Source: Chondrosia reniformis
Taxonomy: Eukaryota; Porifera; Demospongiae; Chondrillida; Chondrillidae
Direction: 5' to 3'
DNA length: 64,000 bases
NCBI GenBank assembly: GCA_947172415.1
Contig: OX359194.1
Coordinates: forward strand, 3,658,001 to 3,722,000
Positions 23,901 to 59,900 of the stretch are shown here, in pieces. A program made the position numbers and the translations under genes. The notes beneath the pieces were generated by a model. It worked only from the letters and a program-made list of their open reading frames with translations. It was not told the DNA's origin and made no database searches. Position 1 is the first letter of the stretch, and each line of letters begins with the position of its first letter.

Positions 23901-26900
23901 GAGTAATGTAGCATAAGTCTCATCTAGTCTTTCCATTGCTTTAAGCAGATCCCTTCTCTTAAACTTTATCTCAACAGTCCCTTCTGGCTCCAAAACACCT
24001 CCTCTGACAAAAAAAGATTAAATAACCTAGGCAACCTCCAAAGACACCAACACATTACCACATGTGTTAAGAGTTAACAGTAGCCAACCTGCTTTCCCTA
24101 TCTGCATACATTTCCATGAAGTCTGGGTTAATAGTTGGATCCACCACAACCCAAGCGCCACCTCTAAGTTCTCCATGTGGAGGAAGGTACACAATAACTG
24201 GCTGCTTGAAAGCAACAAGTGCATCCACAATCATTGAACCATATTTGAGTATTTCTTCATACATATCTACATAATTAACAGTGCAATCATAATAGTTATC
24301 TCAAATCACTAATACCGTATAAACAATTGTACAGTAACTCCAAAAAATATCAAATGAATGAGGGTATAAATACAGGAACAAAGAAGTACAACTGTTGATA
24401 AATAAGTACGTAACCCAAATGTATTCACAACTGTAATCATAGCTTAGTTTAAAGGAGCCTCTGTGACAAACATTTTTAGCTACAGCTCTGAGGTCTTCAT
24501 CAACAATAAATGAGGAAATGGGAAAATAGCCAAACATAAATAGGGAAGGGAGATGGAGAATAAGTGATGATGTAATAGTGTGGAATTGATATTAAAAAGT
24601 GTTAATAAATTGTGTCATTATATATCGGATCCGGCTGCATTCATACTAGTAGGTCCATGTGATGTATGGAGTCTCTTTTATAATCCTAACCTCATTTATA
24701 TCCCATTTATCGACGTCCTAGTGAATAAGAACAAAGTAAGTTTGAGTACATACATGTACAAGAAACCAACCCACAGATACCTAGATAGAGGATAGATACC
24801 TTCACTTCTCTTCTCATCACCATCCTAGGGTGAAAACAGGCATTGCCCTCTGCCTCAGGAACAGAGCAGAGAAGATTTGTGGTTCTGGAATCGGTGTCCT
24901 CAAGAGAGAAAAAGAGGACCTAAAAGGGGTATTCCAAGCCAATGAATACCCCGGAAAGGTTGCCACTAGGCACATGAAGAAGAGAAAAAGGAACCAAGGA
25001 AGTAGGGTAGATGGTATGCACGAACGTTTTAATCCATATGTGAAGGTCTCAGTGAAATGATCTCCAGGATATGTCAGAAGATGAATATTGAAACCATCTT
25101 CACAAAACAGAGATCACTGAGGAGTATATATCTTCTAGACCCAAACAACCACAGCCTACTATGGATATAAAAGATCAGATCCCTTGTTCTAGATGCCCTG
25201 CAGTATACACAGGAGAGACAGGAAGAATTCTGAAAGTCAGGATGGCAGAGCACAAACATGCTGTCACGATGGCAGTTATATTCGTTATTAATTTCTAAGC
25301 AAGGAGTTACACACAATGGAATTGTAGTGGATGGAGAGCAAGTAACACTTTTTTGTTATGTGTTTGCCTTTTGTTTATTATAAACAGAGTTGTAAGTGAT
25401 TATTGAAAGGATTTGCTTATCATAATAATTAAATTCCTCTTGGACAATAGCTAGCAGATCAATTATGCTGAATTCTAGCTGGGAGTCTTCTAAATCGTCA
25501 TCTTCTCTCAGAATCCATGCAATCACTGCCAGAATCGTCATTAAACACACCAATGATGTCCTTTAGCTCAACACAAGCAGGTTTACGGTTAGACATTTTT
25601 AAAAAGTGTGTAAATAACCGAATAAGTATAGCTCTTATATTGCCAAAAATTCTGGCATATAAAAACAGCTAAAACTCTTTGTTCTTTCGCGTGCAGTTCT
25701 AATTTCGACAATCAAAACAAACATTAGTCTCTTTGCTTTACAAAGAACAAAAAAGAAGTCGAGGCAGCAATAGACATATGAAATAGAGGCTGATTATCAA
25801 ACGGGCCATTATAGTGGCCCATGAACGATTACGTGTATACAAAAGTAAAAACACAAATGATAAAAGGTTAAGCCAGAGTGGTGGAGAGGAAGAGGAACTG
25901 GTACAGAAGAAGAATTAAGGAAGCCATGAAGATTCAACAAAGTCAGGTTAGAATGAACCTGGATAAAGGAATTGTATTACAAAGCGGTTGGAAAACCTTT
26001 TTTACGAGTACAGTGGCCGCCGATTAATTGGGATCCGGTTAATAGGGATTTTCGGTTAAACGGGTGCATTCCTGTGGAATGGATTCGCTATACACATTTT
26101 GTATACAAATTACTTCTGATAATCAGGACGAGATTATGGTTAATTGGGACGTTTGGCGAAGGCTAAGGAAGAAATCTTGGAGCAGTTTGAAAGCGGCTGC
26201 AATCGTGAGCGTAAGCGACAGCAAGTTGGGAAAGAGGAGGATGTTGGCAGTGCCCTGTTTCTATGGTTAAACAGAAGTTGAGCCAGGGTGCACGACATTC
26301 AGGACCAATACTAAAGCAGAAGGCCAAGGAACTCGGAGAAGTGGATGGATCTAATTTTTCACCTTCTGACGGCTGGCTGTCACTTTGGAAGAAACGCTAC
26401 GACATTGTTTAAAGTTTAATATGTAGCTATTACATTTTTCTTTACCTTCTGCTTAATTGGGACTACTGGATAATTGGGACATTCTCCCTACTTCCGAGGC
26501 GTCCCGATTAAGTGGAGTGTACTGTACTTCTTTTTCTTCTCCTTCCCACAGATGTAATGGATGATGCCATTAATGAGGTAATTCAAAATGGCGGGAAAGA
26601 GATGCCTATATAAATAGACACCTACAGACCAAGAACAGTCACTAAAGAAGACCATCAGGGTTGAAACGTCAGACAGCCAAGAAGAAACAACAAAACTGTG
26701 TCTTTAGACGCTCTAAAAGTCGATAGGTTAAACGCAGTTAGAAGGAATGCTTACTCTATTAACCTCTATTATCTTCCTCTTCAGTTTGTGTTATTCTTGT
26801 GAAATGAGGATGGCCTGTTCCCATGTAATGTCGTGAGAGGGCTTTTGGACTTGCATTGCTAAGGAGAGTTGCTCTAGTCCATTCTACTAACTGCCCTTCT

Positions 26901-29900: not shown

Positions 29901-32900
29901 GCTTTCGACATTGTGGTCCTCAGGTACAGTCTGATGCAATGGAGGGCATTAAATGATCTCTCAGATGTTGTATTCATGGTTGGCAGTATCAACAGAAACT
30001 GAAACAACTGGCAGACTGTTTTCAGCAGCATTCCTTGGGTGGTGGACAGGTCAACTGATGGTATCACACTTCCTACAGTTGATAGATAGAACAAGTGGAG
30101 AATAGACAGCTCTGCTACCAACTTCTCCTTGTTGGAGTCATCGCAGAAGAATGTGCATACTAGATCCAGCTCCTTCTTGAGACACTGCCATCTATATGCC
30201 TTGAATAGAAGCTACTCTATATTACAGAATTTTCTTGATACAGTATTCATGAACAGTGCATTACTGACTTCAATTGCCCAACCAACTTGAAACATTCACA
30301 AAACTTTAGTTATGTTTCCACAAGTGCAACTGAAAAGATATTGCCTTCAGCTGTAGTAACCTTGGAATGATCCAGTACATAAAGAAAGGCAGTGGAACCT
30401 CCACTAACGGAACTCTCCCAGCAACGTAAACCTCTATACAATGAACTGGAAGGTAGTAACGAACTAAATTTGCTATTAAATTAGCACATAACAAACTACC
30501 CTACACCAGAATCTCTCAGTTATAATTAATATACCTTGCATAATCTTGATTTATATTTAACGAAAATTTGAATGAACATGTAGATATCGAGTGCACATTT
30601 TATGAGGCGTATGAATTATTCACTTACGAATACAACATCCTATTAGCATATGACTATTTGTATCCTTTAAAGACTTGTGTTCACTTCCCTAGTATATGTA
30701 TACTTTGATATAAAATACCAAGCTGAGATTTATAGTTATCAAGCTGACTAGTTTTCGAAGCAAAAACCTGGTTAAATGTGGATACATGAAATCTATAGTG
30801 GAATGTAACAATTGCTCGAATTTAGTGACTGTATTACAGTCACATTTATTGAACTTACAGGAATGTAAGTGGCAATGTAAGCGGCCATAGGCTAGTTTGA
30901 GTCCTATAGTTAATTCACACGAACCCACAATATTTTAAACAATTATATAATATACTTGTGTACTGCATTAACTTTTACATTTTAATAGAATAAGGATTCC
31001 TTATAACTGCGTCAGGGACTGGTAGGTGAAGTCCAATCACCACCCTAGGGTAAAAACTGGTATCTCACTGTGTCTAAAAGACAGAGCCAAAAAGATTTGT
31101 GGACCAAACTCCAGTAGCTTGAAAGAAGAAAAGGAGCACCTGGAAGGAGTACTTCAAGCTAATGGCTAACCTAAACAGGAGGCTCATAGACTGCTCAACA
31201 GAAGAAGGCAGACTAAGGGAAGTGAGGATGAGTGCAAACACAAAATCTTTATTCCATATATAAAGGGACTCAGTGAGATGATTGGCAAAAGCTGTAGGAA
31301 AATGGGTATCCAGACCATTGTCTCCAAACAGAGAGCACTGAGAACCATATTATCCAATCCTAAACAGCCACAACCACCTATCGATACCAAGGGTGTAGTT
31401 ACCTAATTCTGTGCTCTGATTGTTCTGCAGTCTACATGGGCGAAACTGGATGGACCCTGAAAGTGAGACTGTTGGTACACTGCGTTTTTAAACGTTCAAA
31501 AGTTGAAGGATGTACCATCCCAAAGATTGTTACATTTTTCTGCACATTTGCACCACTTGTTTTTATTGCTGATTTCAACTATAGTGTAGTGAAGTTAACT
31601 ATGGCTATGTCTGATAAATGCAGACACCATCTCTCTTTACAAGAATAAGTTGACATTATCAAGAAATGAACTCATGGAAAGTCAGTGCAAACTATCAGTG
31701 AAGAGAGCTAACTGTGGTAAAACCAGCCACCCATGTTTTTCTGAAGCCACTAGTACCAGCTGTTTGATTGATAAAGTTGCTACGTAAATATGTTACATTC
31801 CATTAATGCAAGATACTTTTCCTACCTTGGATGCCTTTTTAAACGATATCAAGCATCATATATAATTGTATTTTAATTGTATTATAATTGTAAATGATAT
31901 TTTGAATAATTATATCAGTGCAAAAATTCCCAAGAATGAGAATTAGGAAAGACTCCCAATAAAGGTTGAAGCTAACACTAAATGTTAAAAATACAGTTAG
32001 TGATCAATTGTACGTATAGTTGTATGTGTTCGTTTATTTTATTTCTGATTATATTAAAGCTTTTCCAGACATGGGGGGTCACTTCTAGGCTTTGAATATG
32101 GCCTATGCTGCATTCTATTCTAAGTTGTAGCTGTGGTCAATGGATAAACGTGAGGTCACAGACTAGGACCAGTAAAACAAGGAGGTTCCCTAAGGGTCTC
32201 TCATATGCATAAAAATATCTGTTGGTAGTGATATAACCTCAAGTACCTCTCATTCCCCCTGAGAATCCTCTCCAATTAGCAAAAATTATTAGAGGAAGTC
32301 CCTCCATGTTTATGTCATTTATAGCCTGGGCTGTCTTAAAAGCTGAATCTGGATACCACACTTGTCCAGCCTGAGAAATAACCTGAGTTTCTACATATGA
32401 AAAGCCATTATATGGTGTAAGGTATGTAGATCAAAAGGAAATAAAAGATTTCACATGTACCTGTATCTGGGTTGGCAGGGTCAGCTGGTTTGTTAGCTTC
32501 TACTGTTCTTGTTTCCACAGCAATTACTCCCATTGGAATACCACATAGTTTCGCTCGTCCACATACTACAGTCTGGGCCCACAGTGCCTGTACTTCTGTG
32601 AAACTGCCTTCATCAAAGAAACCACTTTCAAATTCACTTTCACAATTTCTACCTGCTATGAGCCATCTATATGAATATAATTTTAACAATCAATTAGAAA
32701 GTTTTGTGAAATATATGCACAAAAGACAAAGGCTAAAAAAAGAATATACCTGGGATTATACGGAGCCTTAGTAGGAGTGTATATGATAGGTCTGTCCACA
32801 ATATCAGATGGAACTGAGACAGGGAGAGTGGAACCCGAAGTCTTGCCTATAAGGGCCAACCACTCAATGATCTTTAAGATACCTTCATAGTCACTTGAAG

Positions 32901-50900: not shown

Positions 50901-53900
50901 TGTAATGTATCTTCTAGTAAAAATACCACAGGCACCACTACTAGGGCAACAGATGTTACTAGATACAGTACAAAGCTGTGAACATAGATATGGACGGACC
51001 TTTGCTGTCCCATAATAAAGATGCATTTTCATGTTCTGCGTTGAAATAAGGTGTACATCGAAGTTGCTCAGCCTATTAATCTCAAGCTGGAATGCAAGTG
51101 CTGGCTCCAAGTGTCGATATATTATATCCTCTTCAAACTACACGTGTACATATACAGTATTCATATATTTATTTAGTCATATATATTTATTTAAACCTTT
51201 ATTTATATACGTAGGTACATATACAAAATGATAAGGGGTGTTTGTTGTAATTACGATGAGCTAGAAAGTGTGTCAACAAGGATTTCTTTAGTAATGGGCT
51301 CACTACTCTCTCCAGTCATTGCCAACTCTACATGCAGTTTTTCGAAAGCCTAGCTATCAACACTGCGAAGGTGGTACCAATAATTTGGCTATGATATGTA
51401 GATGATACTTTCATTCTCTGGCGACATGACTGTGAAGAACCATCTCAACTCAATCAGAAGTAGCATCCACTTCAAAATGGAGGAGGAAGTAGGAGGAAAA
51501 CTACCTTTCCTGCATGTCTTAGTCAGGAGGGACACTCAACAGTTCCAGACCAGTATATTCACTCACAATGACAGCTATGTAAACTACAAATCTAATCAAC
51601 ATCCCACCACCAAAATTGGTACCATCCCTTGTCTAAAGAAGTGGGCTGTAGACATCTACCAATGTAAGGCAAGGCCTTAAAGAAGGAAATAAAAACACTT
51701 TCATTCCCAACAACTACCCTGAAGGATTGATAAGGAGAACATTACATAAAAGTAATAAGAGTAGAATCAAAGAAAGAGTTAAAGAGCAGGAACGGATACT
51801 TCTGCCTATCATATATCAAAAGCATCAGTGAAAATCTTGAAAAAACATGCAGATCTCTCAACATTAGGGTGGTAGATAGGACCCCTGTCACACTGTGCTC
51901 CCTACTGACACAGATAAAATCATCAATTCCCCAAGAACAAAAGACAGGAGTCATCTACTGGATTTTGTGTGAATGTGGAAACACATATACTGGAGAAACT
52001 TCTAAGACACTGAAGGAAAGATTGAAGGAACACCAGAAGGCGGTCAGAAGAATAGATACCAATAATTACATTGCAGTGCATGTCAGAGATACCTTATAGA
52101 ATGTTTCCTGGGACAATACCAAGACTTTAAAGACAGAACAGAATCAGAAGAAGAATAAAGGAAGCCATCATGATAAAGACCACCCCCTGTTTTAATATGG
52201 ATCCAGGAATATCTCTGGAATGATTAACACTATTCTCACAAATTCTCTTTTTATCCTAATTAAATTATTCAGTGCACTTTCAATGACACCACCTTTTACC
52301 ATCTGCCATCCAACCTCTACATAAACACCAATTTCCTTTGGAATTTTCATATTTGCAGATGAAGGCCCACGTGTTGAAACGTTTTACTAAACAATTCGTT
52401 GTTGTACAGCTCACGTACATATACATACGGTACAAGTCAAAAGTAACTTACAGTTTTCCACAGTTTCCTTCAAACCACGGATGCTGTAAACTGCAGTTGC
52501 CTGTACAGATATTTACAGACTACTGCACAGCCATCCGTTGAAATCTGAATTTTTCCGAAAGCAACTAGTCCGTACATATTGTTAATCTACTTGCGTATGT
52601 ATACGTATATTGCGTGTGTATACATTATAGTTTTCTTTATTATAGAATCGGTTACGTACAGTAAACACTAATTATAGAATGGTAGATACGTATATAACGT
52701 ATATAAATGAAGTATAAAAAATATAAAGTTCAACTGTTACTGGCTTATATATCGCATATACGTAATTTTCAGGACACACTTATATACCGTTTTAAAGGAA
52801 AACAACGATTTCTAATCAACCAATCGAATGTTTTGATCAATTACGTTGAGGTCGCGTATTTCTGCACATCTCCGCAGTTAACACCATAATCCAGTGGAAT
52901 TTCGCAGATTTCAGCAGAAAAGTGAGGTATAACTGAGGAAACATGCGGTGCTCTAAAATTTATGTAAAGAGATCATAATGACTTTATCCAAATATCAATG
53001 CGAAAGAATCATCGCTATGGCAGTGGAGGACTTTACATAGAGCTCTGGCTTCGGAGTGAATCCACACAACCCTACAGACTATTTTTTAAAAAAAGGTGCC
53101 CATGTTATCTATTATAATTAATTTGTTTATACAAAACAAACTCATTGTATATATAAGCAACTGTTGTTTATAATAACGCTTCTTCATTGTTGCCATTGAA
53201 CACAGAAGGCAGCGCAAGTAATTGCGGAGAGCAGTGGGGGCATACATGGAGATTTTTTTTAAAAATAGGTATGCAATTATGTGGAAAACTGTGAGTTACT
53301 TTTGACTGGTACCGTAAATATACAATACAAGGCTGAGGCTAAATAATTATACTTTAGCTGCTAACTCCAAACTCATTGAGATACTGAGATCATCATTCTA
53401 ACGTAATTATTTTATATAATTCTATTTTACCAAAGACCAGTTTGTAACTTACACACAAGAGCATGTAAGGCTGATCTCTAAACAAACAACTGTAATGCAC
53501 AAAATGCTATGTGTAAGCTACTGTTTTATGAAGAAGTGTCATGATCTAGATTACATAAATGTCTCAATGGCCAGTTTGCAGACAGTACTTGATAACACTT
53601 ATTATGGTGCCTATACAATACAGTGTAGTGATAAATTAACAAGCTAGCAACTTAGTGTAACCTACCCCTTGTGCTGCTCTGAAGGTGAAGAATTTTGGAT
53701 AGTTCTTCTAAAGGATATATAAAAAATTGTTACTGTAAAGATGTATTTGTATATACCTCACAGAGCAAAAAGATGTGTGTTATGTTACAAAACAATACAA
53801 CTTTGAATGTCTACAATTAACGGTAGAGGTAACTGTGGTAATAACTGAATGACACCTTACATCTTTGAAAATAAGGAATGATATTCTTCTAATTAGCTTC

Positions 53901-56900
53901 TCATGAAGAAGAACTCTCTTTTCCTTCACAAACATGCCTAGTTCTTGATGCCAGGTTTCATCATCCCAGTCCCTCCAATTTTTCACAGCCATCATGACAA
54001 TATTAAGCGGCTCAATTTCACGAGTCTACAATCAATATGGAATAAAGTAGGTGAGAAAATTTCAACACAGATGACAGTACAATTCACATTAATCTATTAC
54101 AATTCTATAACAATTGAATACATTTTTCATACTTGTGCATTTAACTATAGCAATAATCCTTTCTTCACACATTTAACTGTGTAAATATTAAATATGCATC
54201 CCATAACTATTTTACCTAAAAACGCAGTACTGAATAAACTACACACTACCAAATAAATAAGCTGTTTGACTGCTTGACTTTGGTTACCTTGTACTCCAGA
54301 GGAGACATTGGGACTTCTTCAAATATTTTCTCCATTTCAACAAAACTTGCTGAACTTGGAGTAGATACTTCACTGGAAGATTCTGGAGAGAAACCTGCAA
54401 AACAGAAAATACACTTAAGTAAAGGGTCTCACCTAAGTAAAAACATAACCTGTAATTCAAAACGACTTCGTAGATGAAGAGGTTAATCATACAATTTTAG
54501 ATTTTCATATGCTGTCTCAATTAGGTGAGCTTACCTGCTTTAAATTCATTGATAATTGCTTCAAATTTTATTTTAAATTCATCCAGTGATTCAAAGGCTG
54601 CCATGATACCAGCTCGCTGAATATTGGTATCTGGAGCACCTCTATAGGATGACAAATCTTCACCCAAGCTTACAACCTTTTGATTGTCAATGCAAAAATG
54701 GATGAAAGTATGGTTGAACAGGTGAGTAGATAGGTTGATACATTACTTACTTTGGGAACTGGAAGAAGGTGTACTGACTTTCTAAAGGAGAGCCGTCTGT
54801 TTGGGTGTGAAGCAGGTAAGTGAAATTGCCACTCTACAAGGAGTGGCCCCTCAGAGAGCTGCCAAAAGATAAGTAAAATATGTATTAGTGACACAAGCTT
54901 AAAATGTTACTACTACTATACATCAAAATTAAAAACTTTGCAATTGCCTGAAAATGATAAAATTTACTTCACCTCATCATGCTGAACACTGATTACATCA
55001 TAGGCAAGATAGGAACGTCTGACATAGACTTCTATGGCTGCCTTCCTGACTTGACGATTAGCATGATAAAAGAAACTTGGTAAAATGTCAAACAAAGAGG
55101 TTTCTGAGGTAATTAGTTGCTGTTTTATTTGAAAGAAAAAAACAATGACAGTTAATAATATTATATTTCTGTAATTAAACATTATAATAGTTTGCATAAA
55201 ACCAATACAGACCTAAGACAGTCTTCAAAAGATAGCAATGATAAATGCATGCAAGCCCGTTGTTAGCAACTATAATAGAGTTATTACAAAAGCCTAATGC
55301 TTGACAATCTTAAAGCATACAATTATGTAAGGATAATATTAAGAAGAAAAAGGGGGAACACAAGTAAATAAGAAACATTTACAAAAATGATGTTAGAAGT
55401 AGGAAAGGTATACACTTCTGTGTTTGGGTGCACCATTCCTACTTCAACTTGGTGCGCTCAATGTACGGTTAAGTTACTTAAATTTCAGTATACATGCAAC
55501 TTCTGTATGATTAGCCTTATCATATAATCACTGTCTTGTTTTTAATACTTTTTGCAGATGTATTAGTGAACACTGCCATTCCTACTTCTAACATCATCTT
55601 TTTGTAAATGTTGTTTATTTACTTTACAATTATGGGACAGTGTTACAAGGGCTACACTGGATGAAGAAAAAAGGGGCATCTGTAATATTCGAACTGTCCT
55701 AAAACATTATTGATACCCTAGCATACTGCATCCATTTAATACACAGAAACACAAAATGTGCTGCATGATATCTTTCATATACCGTGTAAATGTAATACTG
55801 CAATAAGCCCTTTAGCTGCCACATCTATTAGATGACACATACCCCTGTACATTACGATTTATCCTTTACATACGTACCTCCATTTTGTCTGCCTGAATGG
55901 CTTCTTCATCATCAATTGCTGATAGAAATATGGACTCCACGTGATTATACCTCAATTGATAAGAAGGTTGGCTGGCCATGATCAGCACTTGTCTGGCTCT
56001 CAGTGCTACAGAACTGTTCTTATAGTTGCTCAGATTAGCCAGTTGAGAGAGAATGGTAGATGTCTCATTTGGTAATTTTATTCCACCAGAATGACCAACT
56101 AGGAGATTCTATAGAGAGATGTTGTTAAGCAAAGGTAATTACAGATGAGTGCCTTAACTAACAGTTACATATTTAAACCAGTATCACAGAGCAATAATGA
56201 CTAAAATAACTAAAGTACTTGCATGTGGTGTGACTAACATCATTTACAATATCCATATGCTTATACATAAATACGTATATAAAAAGGTCATCATTACTTT
56301 TCACATACAATTCGGTTACTCAGAAGAATTGGATCACCTACAACTTACAATAAGCTTAACTGCTAATTCATTCTTTGACTTGACATATAAATGGGAACAG
56401 ATGTCTTGAGCAACCTTGTTCGCATTGTCCTTGTGATACAACTTTAAGCCCTCAACACCTTTATCATAGGCACCTTTAAGTAATATAGTGCATTTTAAGA
56501 CAGTAGTTAACCTTTGCATTCAGTAGTATGTGCATACATATGTCATGAGTGTCTGTATGTAGTAAATAAGCAGTTGTGGGGTGAATGTACAGTGCATACG
56601 AAAGAAACATAAAACCACTTAATAGAATAAACATTTCTTCTAACTACATTAAGTTATCTTATAGATGGTACATCTTTTTGACCTTTTGAGCATATAAAAA
56701 GTCACTTTGGCTTTATAAATCTTCTGGTTGAACGTTTTGATCCTGGGGGTTGTCATCCTATCCATCAGTCGCTGATGAAGACCCCCCAGGGTCGAAACGT
56801 TTGACCAAAAGACATATAAAGGCAAACTGCGTTTTTAGATGCTCAAAAGATTCAAAATATGTACCATCTACGTAAAAGATGAAACCACTTCTTTAGGAAA

Positions 56901-59900
56901 AATTAATTTTCCAGAACTAACCCTGAAATACTTTCTCAACTCTCAGGTATTCCATAAGTAGTTCACATATCACTGATCTCATTCTACCTCTGATTCCATG
57001 AGAATACTTTCTAACAAACTCTACAATAGGGTTTGTCTGAAGGTAGTACTTGTCTATCTCCTGTCTCCCACTGAGACTGGCACCATATTGGTCAATCACA
57101 CTACATATCTGATATGATTACGAAAATAAGAGATCAAGTTTAGACACAGCAAAGGCCAAAGCATCTGGCAAGTTAAAATGTCACTAAAATGGGATTTTGT
57201 GCAAATGTATTGGTTAGATCTAATATTCTGGTATGTCATACCATTCAATAGGACTTAGGTCTCCTAATTTAGATTATGTACATATGCAATGAATTACCTG
57301 CAGACTAGGAAACTGTTCCAGCATAGAGGTAAGATTGTAAGCATATCTTTGGAGAAGCTCATCAATGTCCACCTCCAGTTGGTGAGGTATACGACCAGAC
57401 AGACTTGACATTAACTCCTAATTTATACACACATACACACAGTTAAAATGTGCAATGTCTAGTAATACATTACTTAAAGATAGACTCAAATGAGATCAAC
57501 TGATTTAGATATTAGTTTCCTGAGTAAAACCTAACACCTCCTCACAATATTATCACTAAACAGTTATCATGTACCTAACAGCAGTGCAAGTGGTAACTAC
57601 TGGTCTATTATGGCTACTACCCATCAGTGGTTGTCATTACCACCATACATTAATCTATCTGTAGTGGCCACAACCTATCAATAGTGGCCACAACCTATCC
57701 ATAGTGGCCACAACCTATCCACAGTGATTACAACCTATCGACATAGGTCCCTAGCTGTCCACGCAAAAGACCACCAATCTACTTGATTAACAGCTGAGAT
57801 CCTCTTATGTACGAACATATCTAGAGTGTTATTAGGAGCAAATTAGGTATGTATTTATTCAACTCACTTTGGTTTCTAGCAATGGAAGGGAAGGGTCATT
57901 CAAGCTTCGTGTGAATGCTAATAAGGTTGTGTTTAACTAAATACATGAAATGAAATGAAGCATCAGTGCACATTACAAATACTTTATACATGTTATACAG
58001 AGGGGTGAAGAATCATTTATTTCAACAGGAAACTATAATTATTGTTATAGAATATATGCATGACAAAAAAGGTAAAGTAACTAATTGGGTGAAAATTTGG
58101 TGACCTCACACAAGGCAATTAACTATACGTATGTATAAGGTCAATAATGCAAAAACTGCTGATACTCCTCACTCTTTCAGTCTGGAAAGGTTCTGGGAGA
58201 ACATAACCACTCAGCATTGAGACCAAGTTATTTTCAGCTAATTTGTACACTTGATGTGTCTTGGTGCCACGAGTACATGCAGCATAATGGCATGGAAGGT
58301 TCTCAGTGTACTTTTCACTTTGCTTCACTCTAGTAGGGTCATCCAGTTCAAGTGTTGCAAGTACAGCTCCAGCATGAATGACAGCCCCTGCTCTCTTCAG
58401 GTGATGCAAGCTGAGATTACAGGAGGAGAGACAAAGTGATGACAAGGAGTAGGTGATAGGAGGGAGACAGGGAGAAAGGACAGTGGGATAGAAAAAAGAG
58501 GAAAAACATTAATTAAGGTTTAACAGTAAAAGTCAGAGTAAATGCCAGTATTACTGTACTTACATTCCACTTTCTTGTGAAACTAAATATGTAACCATTT
58601 TCATGACTTCAATTTCAGCATAGGGTTGATTGATATCTACATGTCCTCCATCTTCTATCAGGAAGTGAATGAGCTTTCCTGGAGAGTTAGACCTTAAGAC
58701 TCGTGGATCATTCTCCTTCTCAAACACAATGGTTTTTCCACTTATGGTGAATCTACAATAAAACAATTAATAAGATACATAAGTATAGATCTTATAATTG
58801 GGTAAGAAAGGAGGATGATACGGATGAGTAATAATTACAAAGAGTTTTGCAATCTTCATGTTAGCAATTTTATACTAAGTGAAAGGCCTATGTTGAGGCA
58901 TTTAGAACTACATATATAACAACCTGTAATGGCTTGTCTCCTCCCTCATGTATACAGTATGAGCTGATCCACCTAGTGAAATGAGAAGACCTCGATCGCT
59001 CATCTTGTGCACATCTACTTCCACATTGGATTCATTGAGCATGACAATACAAGTGTTTACACTAGCCCATGACACCTGCACAGTGGGAATGAAATGGGGA
59101 TGAAAGGAGGAGAGATAATGTACTGGGAGAGGGGGCGATGGAGAATAAATGAAATGGGATGAGATGGAGATGAATGGACAGATGTAGAGATAATTGGTAG
59201 GAAGCTGGGGTGTGTAGTACACTACTTACTTGACTTGTGTATTTCACTCCTTCATACAGAAGTTCAACATCCACAACATTTGCAATCATCTCTGCATTCA
59301 TAATTTGGCCTCTAATAAACAGCACCAAAATAACATGTTATGCATACTGTATTCAGGTAACAAGATAGTCTCCCTTAATCTTTATCCTACAATCATGAAT
59401 AAATATCAGCAATGAATAATTTTTCAATGGGCTCTTACTTTTCAAGGTAGGCTTGGTAGTCTGCATATCGCTTTCTGATAGTCTCTTCAGCAATACACAA
59501 TGAACCACAGATGACACCAAGTATTGTATCAGGACGCTCAGACTGGAGGAAGACACCAGATTTCATATTGTGGTTCAATGATTATGCAGAGAAATTTACC
59601 CACACTCTGAATTTTGAGCAGTTATATATAATTAGTTGGTCATCAGGTCACTTTTTGTTACATTTGGTTATATTAATAATAGTATACATGAATAATCGAA
59701 GTGATAATCAAACCACAAGTATAATCAGTCAAACATCAATAGGAGGGAAAAACACGAAAGAAGCAATTGCTGGGAATCGAACCCAGGACAGCTGGTTATG
59801 ACCACCAGTTGCTCTGCCCCTGAGCTACAATTGCCACAGCAATGCCTCCTCCATGCTCTCCCTCCTAAACTAACTACCAGATAAATAATTAGTCTACATT

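Follow-up and report, generated by a model that had tools for sequence, protein, structure and literature searches.

The way in which Penelope-like elements (PLEs) integrate is unsettled between a self-priming proposal of 2013 and the two-start-site biochemistry of 2024. Self-priming means that a strand folds onto itself and serves as its own template, which leaves inverted arms; the excerpts of PMC3846280 used here propose this route, with an antisense template, for head-to-head PLEs of a bdelloid rotifer, and they describe for rotifer PLEs a tail optionally present on one inverted pLTR, so that a one-sided tail is partly known already. According to the excerpts of PMC11167929 used here, a PLE protein is able in vitro to cut both strands and to extend them, and it initiates at two neighbouring internal positions of the RNA, between which the tail lies; for the Anolis PLE they report that hammerhead cutting is dispensable for insertion, with no reads beginning or ending at the cut. 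Animal non-LTR retrozymes, as they appear in the excerpts of PMC7229834, are short, non-coding and dispersed with a type I hammerhead; they are direct tandem repeats measuring about 150-450 bp, carry canonical hammerheads and have circular RNAs. A compact sponge genome carrying hundreds of copies provides a countable readout separating the two models of PLE integration, namely one tail per insertion, unequal centres and inner ends at the transcription start.

The window, that is, the whole stretch of 64,000 nucleotides of Chondrosia reniformis DNA analyzed here, contains a palindrome that a sequence-only reading had described as a 207-bp element of two inverted arms. The palindrome is real: positions 56662-56749 and 56783-56870 form inverted arms of 88 nt each, 82% complementary and separated by 33 nt, and the 207-nt palindrome taken as RNA reaches -105.2 kcal/mol (z -13.5), with 0 of 200 shuffles equally stable. 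Its size had been underestimated, as with the left tail and the duplication the full element is 261 bp long (56621-56881) and lies between 9-bp direct repeats AAACCACTT (Table 1). The left tail aligns with the R08/R09 tail as far as 56620-56623, and the left arm, previously taken for a decayed antisense version, proved to be a truncated antisense copy whose first core bases are gone. The right arm is 88.8% identical to the L008 arm across 116 nt and contains the ATG of an ORF remnant at 56859-56861. The window copy has neither a TATA promoter nor coding capacity, and as an object it is an ordinary, body-less head-to-head PLE insertion; what makes it informative is the population to which it belongs, since the reciprocal tail is relevant to PLE integration. 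The best explanation overall, to which we assign a probability of roughly 80% with the caveat that similarity to the window palindrome served to find part of the sample, is a single insertion of a GIY-YIG PLE whose 5' end was copied twice head-to-head.

Table 1. Coordinates of the palindromic insertion, its parts and the flanking ACC segments in the window
Feature	Position	Strand	Remarks
Left target-site duplication AAACCACTT	56612..56620	.	identical to right copy at predicted element ends
PLE tail, antisense next ORF codons, left end	56621..56662	-	tail score 22 left versus 8 right
Left arm: truncated antisense PLE 5' UTR and first codons, without hammerhead core start	56663..56757	-	
Right arm: sense PLE 5' UTR and first codons, tail-less	56755..56881	+	right end scored no tail
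Minimal PLE-type hammerhead motif	56768..56806	+	cleavage predicted from fold between 56801 and 56802
Right target-site duplication AAACCACTT	56882..56890	.	identical to left copy at predicted element ends
ORFs with ACC_central matches, downstream ACC segments	54967-55212 and 55869-56108 (54967..56108)	-	PF08326, E 8.9e-17 and 5.7e-14
ORF with ACC_central match, upstream ACC segment	58122-58508	-	Pfam PF08326, E 3.4e-08
ORF with ACC BT-domain match, upstream ACC segment	58911-59225	-	Pfam PF21385, E 6.7e-14

Minus-strand ORFs matching ACC domains are found on either side of the palindrome, which places it within the ACC (acetyl-CoA carboxylase) gene and agrees with its earlier assignment to an ACC intron with the hammerhead strand antisense to ACC. 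In the sense of the ACC pre-mRNA, the palindrome strand that is read lacks an intact hammerhead core. Elsewhere in the window, the same PLE family is represented by a further short insertion (30984-31529), with an inverted tail fragment on the left (30984-31013) and a tail-less sense arm end on the right, and the 9-bp direct repeat TTACATTTT occurs at 30975-30983 and 31530-31538. A longer decayed PLE copy on the plus strand (25134-26761) retains pieces of the 3' part of the ORF, the promoter and the hammerhead region, with the tail at its right end. An older PLE relative, also on the plus strand (51402-52174), includes an ORF piece at 51734-52096 that matches GIY-YIG with 24.8 bits (Pfam cut-off 22.6). 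The sole window match at the Rfam gathering level is a tRNA gene on the minus strand (59762-59834).

The right-arm hammerhead had been reported to possess a CUGAUGA/GAAA core, a five-pair helix II and a paired helix I, and all these positions were confirmed. On the plus strand CTGATGA (56772-56778) is followed by an additional A (56779), and GAAA is at 56794-56797. Helix II has 5 pairs (56780-56784 with 56789-56793); helix I, GUCG/UGAC, has 4 bp including one G-U (56768-56771 with 56802-56805), and helix III is restricted to 2 bp, AC/GU, with no loop. Rfam returned no hammerhead at the gathering threshold in the whole window, none at E<=10 in 56400-57150 and none at E<=5 in seven relatives, and its weak microRNA matches to the palindrome reflect the hairpin. 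Over 49 distinct copies the 11-pair hammerhead structure was 95.2% paired, and three pairs, mainly in helix I, showed changes of both partners; shuffles reached the observed value in 18 of 500 cases for the paired percentage, in 10 of 500 for the covariation score and in 87 of 500 for both-sided pair changes, so that covariation support for the hammerhead is modest. Core position 7 was the most variable (T 27, A 17, G 7, of 51 copies) and the G of GAAA was replaced by A in 9 of 51, the remaining core positions being almost fixed, a conservation that is biased upwards since the aligned copies were chosen by a fuzzy pattern (core position 7 free, at most 4 substitutions). Forcing helices I and II in the palindrome RNA changes the energy from -105.2 to -71.1 kcal/mol. 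Because the hairpin competes, with the hammerhead fold about 34 kcal/mol costlier in these predictions, the window copy would be unlikely to self-cleave if transcribed whole. The hammerhead travels along within the 5' UTR and is probably a passenger in the window copy.

The genome (117,379,552 bases in 15 contigs, of which contig 15, of 17,451 bp, is mitochondrial and encodes COX1 together with further mitochondrial proteins) was searched with two motifs. The arm-end motif gave 873 matches with at most 1 mismatch and the hammerhead core 697 with at most 3 mismatches, the reversed control pattern giving 0 in both searches; the many dispersed copies sharing the arm end that had been anticipated are thus present by the hundreds. 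Among 100 of the 873 matches listed, neighbours within 500 bp were head-to-head in nine cases and on the same strand in one, the latter corresponding to two copies of a whole palindrome (L054). Loci L001-L046 were sampled by similarity to the window palindrome, L047-L055 for close opposite-strand neighbours in a listing, L056-L066 from the hammerhead-core matches listed, and L068-L107 and L109-L128 from the end-motif matches listed. Some palindromes recur with the same flanks (L044, L106, L107 and L109; L026 and L099-L101; L045/L046; L062/L063; L081/L082/L127) and, given the identical flanks at other places, seem to have been copied together with the surrounding DNA.

The arms almost certainly derive from a GIY-YIG PLE. 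Each arm is the 5' end of such an element, comprising a TATA promoter, the minimal PLE-type hammerhead, the 5' UTR and the first codons; the ORF codons that follow those of the arm make up the tail. The identification of the arm as PLE 5' UTR plus first codons follows from L108, a head-to-head palindrome with 2,225-bp arms at 99.9% identity, in which a long ORF opens at the ATG of the arm and reads through the tail. This ORF matches RVT_1 with 37.7 bits, and L067, likewise head-to-head and with arms of 1,920 bp (99.2%), does so with 31.7 bits, both above cut-off; GIY-YIG scores 16 bits in L108 and 17.1 bits in L067, below the 22.6 cut-off, with the motif readable in both. An RT/endonuclease ORF is therefore present in relatives and absent from the window copy. 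In L108 a 13-bp repeat stands at the two ends, and among the two long copies read L108 shows a partial 5' pLTR, the ORF and a 3' pLTR in direct order. Sequence that we interpret as GIY-YIG-type coding DNA, in some cases with stops, precedes the arm in L009, L014, L016, L017, L035 and L036. Palindromes with and without the RT/endonuclease body make up a size series from 66 bp up to 2.2-kb arms, and the body-less copies may be read as extreme 5' truncations of the PLE.

These data bear on the proposal that the palindrome belongs to a separate retrozyme-like family that moves via a self-cleaved, circularised small RNA. The hammerhead motif with its both-sided changes in helix I, the hundreds of cores, the standalone copies and the target duplications would all be in keeping with such a family, but the same arms are carried by ORF-bearing PLEs, the hammerhead is minimal with a loopless helix III, its fold in the palindrome bears the energy cost given above, and arm ends do not accumulate at the cleavage site (see below). 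Close neighbours among the matches listed are head-to-head and not in the direct tandem of animal retrozymes. The idea of a distinct palindromic family is moreover at odds with the origin of the arms as seen in L108, with the single series formed by palindromes with and without a body, and with outer ends that are unequal (tail or no tail) at variable truncation points; we regard it as very improbable. The sequence-only reading would have been refuted by copies sitting without exception at the ends of complete Penelope elements; strictly this is not the case, as many sampled copies are body-less.

An outer end in the head-to-head pairs has one of two positions, directly behind the first codons or, when the tail is included, about 35 nt beyond them. 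Exactly one tail was present in 42 of the 47 pairs of the first scored set (21 left, 21 right), with both in 1 and none in 4; three of these four tail-less pairs (L012, L014 and L017) showed by BLAST a tail-bearing fragment on one side. In the pooled set, where 68 of 77 pairs entered the count after removal of nine segmental duplicates, 63 of 68 had exactly one tail, 1 had two (L054, borderline) and 4 had none (L018, L080, L088 and L092). The later batch gave exactly one tail in 20 of 20 pairs, 18 of them new, since two of the loci, L109 and L127, are segmental duplicates of loci sampled earlier. The window copy carries its tail on the left arm only. Target duplications, also anticipated by the sequence-only reading, occur as AAACCACTT in the window copy; among 39 pairs, 30 have exact repeats of 7 bp or more at the predicted ends, the figure for 984 mismatched control pairs being 4.2%. 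The test included 39 of 47 pairs, the rest having been dropped for a missing anchor or as duplicated loci; a clear duplication was absent in 9 of the 39, and exact flank matches varied from 4 to 14 bp. MITEs are small hairpins with inverted ends located in introns, and in this they resemble the window palindrome. Terminal inverted repeats moved by a DNA transposase would account for the inverted ends, the direct-repeat flanks and the non-coding window copy, but not for flank matches of no fixed length, for two ends made unequal by a single tail, or for arms that also bracket an RT/endonuclease ORF, and this origin is extremely improbable.

At the inner ends, 5 of 6 promoter-bearing copies, representing three subfamilies, place the A of CAGTC 31-33 nt downstream of the TATA box, the sixth copy checked (L055) being without TATAAA. 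This TATA spacing makes the A the probable start of transcription, in which case the RNA would have the hammerhead right at its 5' end. Inner ends accumulate at the predicted start: 35 of the 117 arms start 0-9 nt before the opening C of CUGANGA, the uniform expectation being 8.6 (19 of 136 arms outside -40 to 95 were excluded). The window right arm begins 12 nt upstream of the predicted start and hence is not a clean run-off. A second pile-up at the hammerhead cut was considered and rejected, since 8 of 117 arms at 24-33 are about the uniform expectation and an arm-by-arm reading leaves two or three near the cut; its absence agrees with the Anolis finding in the excerpts of PMC11167929. Both inner ends of a pair seldom coincide, differing by a median of 49.5 nt (68 pairs) and agreeing within 5 nt in 8 of 68. 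Where one arm lies at the start site (32 pairs), its partner reaches beyond that site in two pairs, of which L060 is doubtful because its reference was taken from the same locus; in 7 pairs the two arms both go past the start site (Fisher p 0.0005). The longer arm was the one without tail in 43 of 63 pairs and the one with tail in 17, with 3 ties, the corresponding figures being 15 to 5 in the end-motif subset and 13 to 7 in the later batch. Junctions between arms (n=68) overlap or abut (0-5 nt) in 15 pairs, contain 1-9 nt of filler in 27 and at least 11 nt in 26.

Self-priming would fit the head-to-head layout, the nearly identical arms of L108 and L067, whose differences look private to one arm, and the few pairs with agreeing inner ends. 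However, it predicts like outer ends for both arms, and these were unlike in 63 of 68 pairs, in addition to the inequality of the inner ends. Unequal ends on both sides argue against fold-back copying, which explains the inversion alone, and we consider it unlikely. Arm differences were discarded as proof of two RNA templates; because the differing sites in L067 and L108 look private to one arm, they do not decide the number of templates.

The double copying of the PLE 5' end is probably due to two-strand priming. The PLE enzyme would cut both target strands and prime a cDNA on each free 3' end, one cDNA starting at a downstream site and including the tail, the other at an upstream site and lacking it, with both start sites lying in the stretch of element RNA that holds the first codons. 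From there each cDNA would extend toward the RNA 5' end, often halting at the transcription start, and the ends of the two cDNAs would then be joined. Two separately started and joined cDNAs would produce inverted arms, unequal outer and inner ends and a target duplication. The correlated extent of the arms, together with their near identity in young copies, suggests a shared origin of the two cDNAs, either in one RNA or in one kind of RNA. A wider generalization, to which we would give even odds, is that PLEs as a rule integrate from two sides, with both strands primed by a dimeric complex on one RNA, at one start site each: the leader cDNA, from the upstream site, would lack the tail and usually be longer, and the follower, from the downstream site, would bear the tail and usually be shorter. 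One-tail palindromes would then be the usual product, and the body-less ones strong-stop-like run-offs at or near the RNA 5' end.

In the literature searched, subscription journals lying outside its scope, no statement was found of a tail on exactly one arm as a rule, nor of two-strand priming linked to palindromes, and the excerpts of the 2024 biochemistry (PMC11167929) do not tie the start sites or two-strand extension to genomic inverted copies. Body-less PLE scars can pass for MITEs, microRNA hairpins or new hammerhead families. As far as the excerpts of PMC11167929 and PMC3846280 go, the sponge element is similar to GIY-YIG PLEs such as Poseidon PAc of Anolis and Pen2a of Adineta vaga in its RT and GIY-YIG-type ORF, in a pLTR that includes the first codons, in the optional tail of 30-40 bp, in the short target duplications and in the minimal hammerhead within the pLTR. 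By our own reading of the printed Anolis RNA, the motif there can be followed likewise as CUGAGGA, one additional base, helix II and then GAAACGUC, and its cleavage triplet is GUC as against GUU in the sponge. About 95 nt separate the sponge hammerhead from the ATG downstream of it, whereas in known GIY-YIG PLEs, within the same excerpts, the two overlap. The sponge arms differ from retrozymes in being inverted and in having a hammerhead of the minimal PLE form, and from MITEs in their unequal ends, variable duplication length and PLE-derived sequence. Unlike in known GIY-YIG PLEs, body-less palindromes are common in the sponge, and dozens of insertions are available for counting the one-tail rule.
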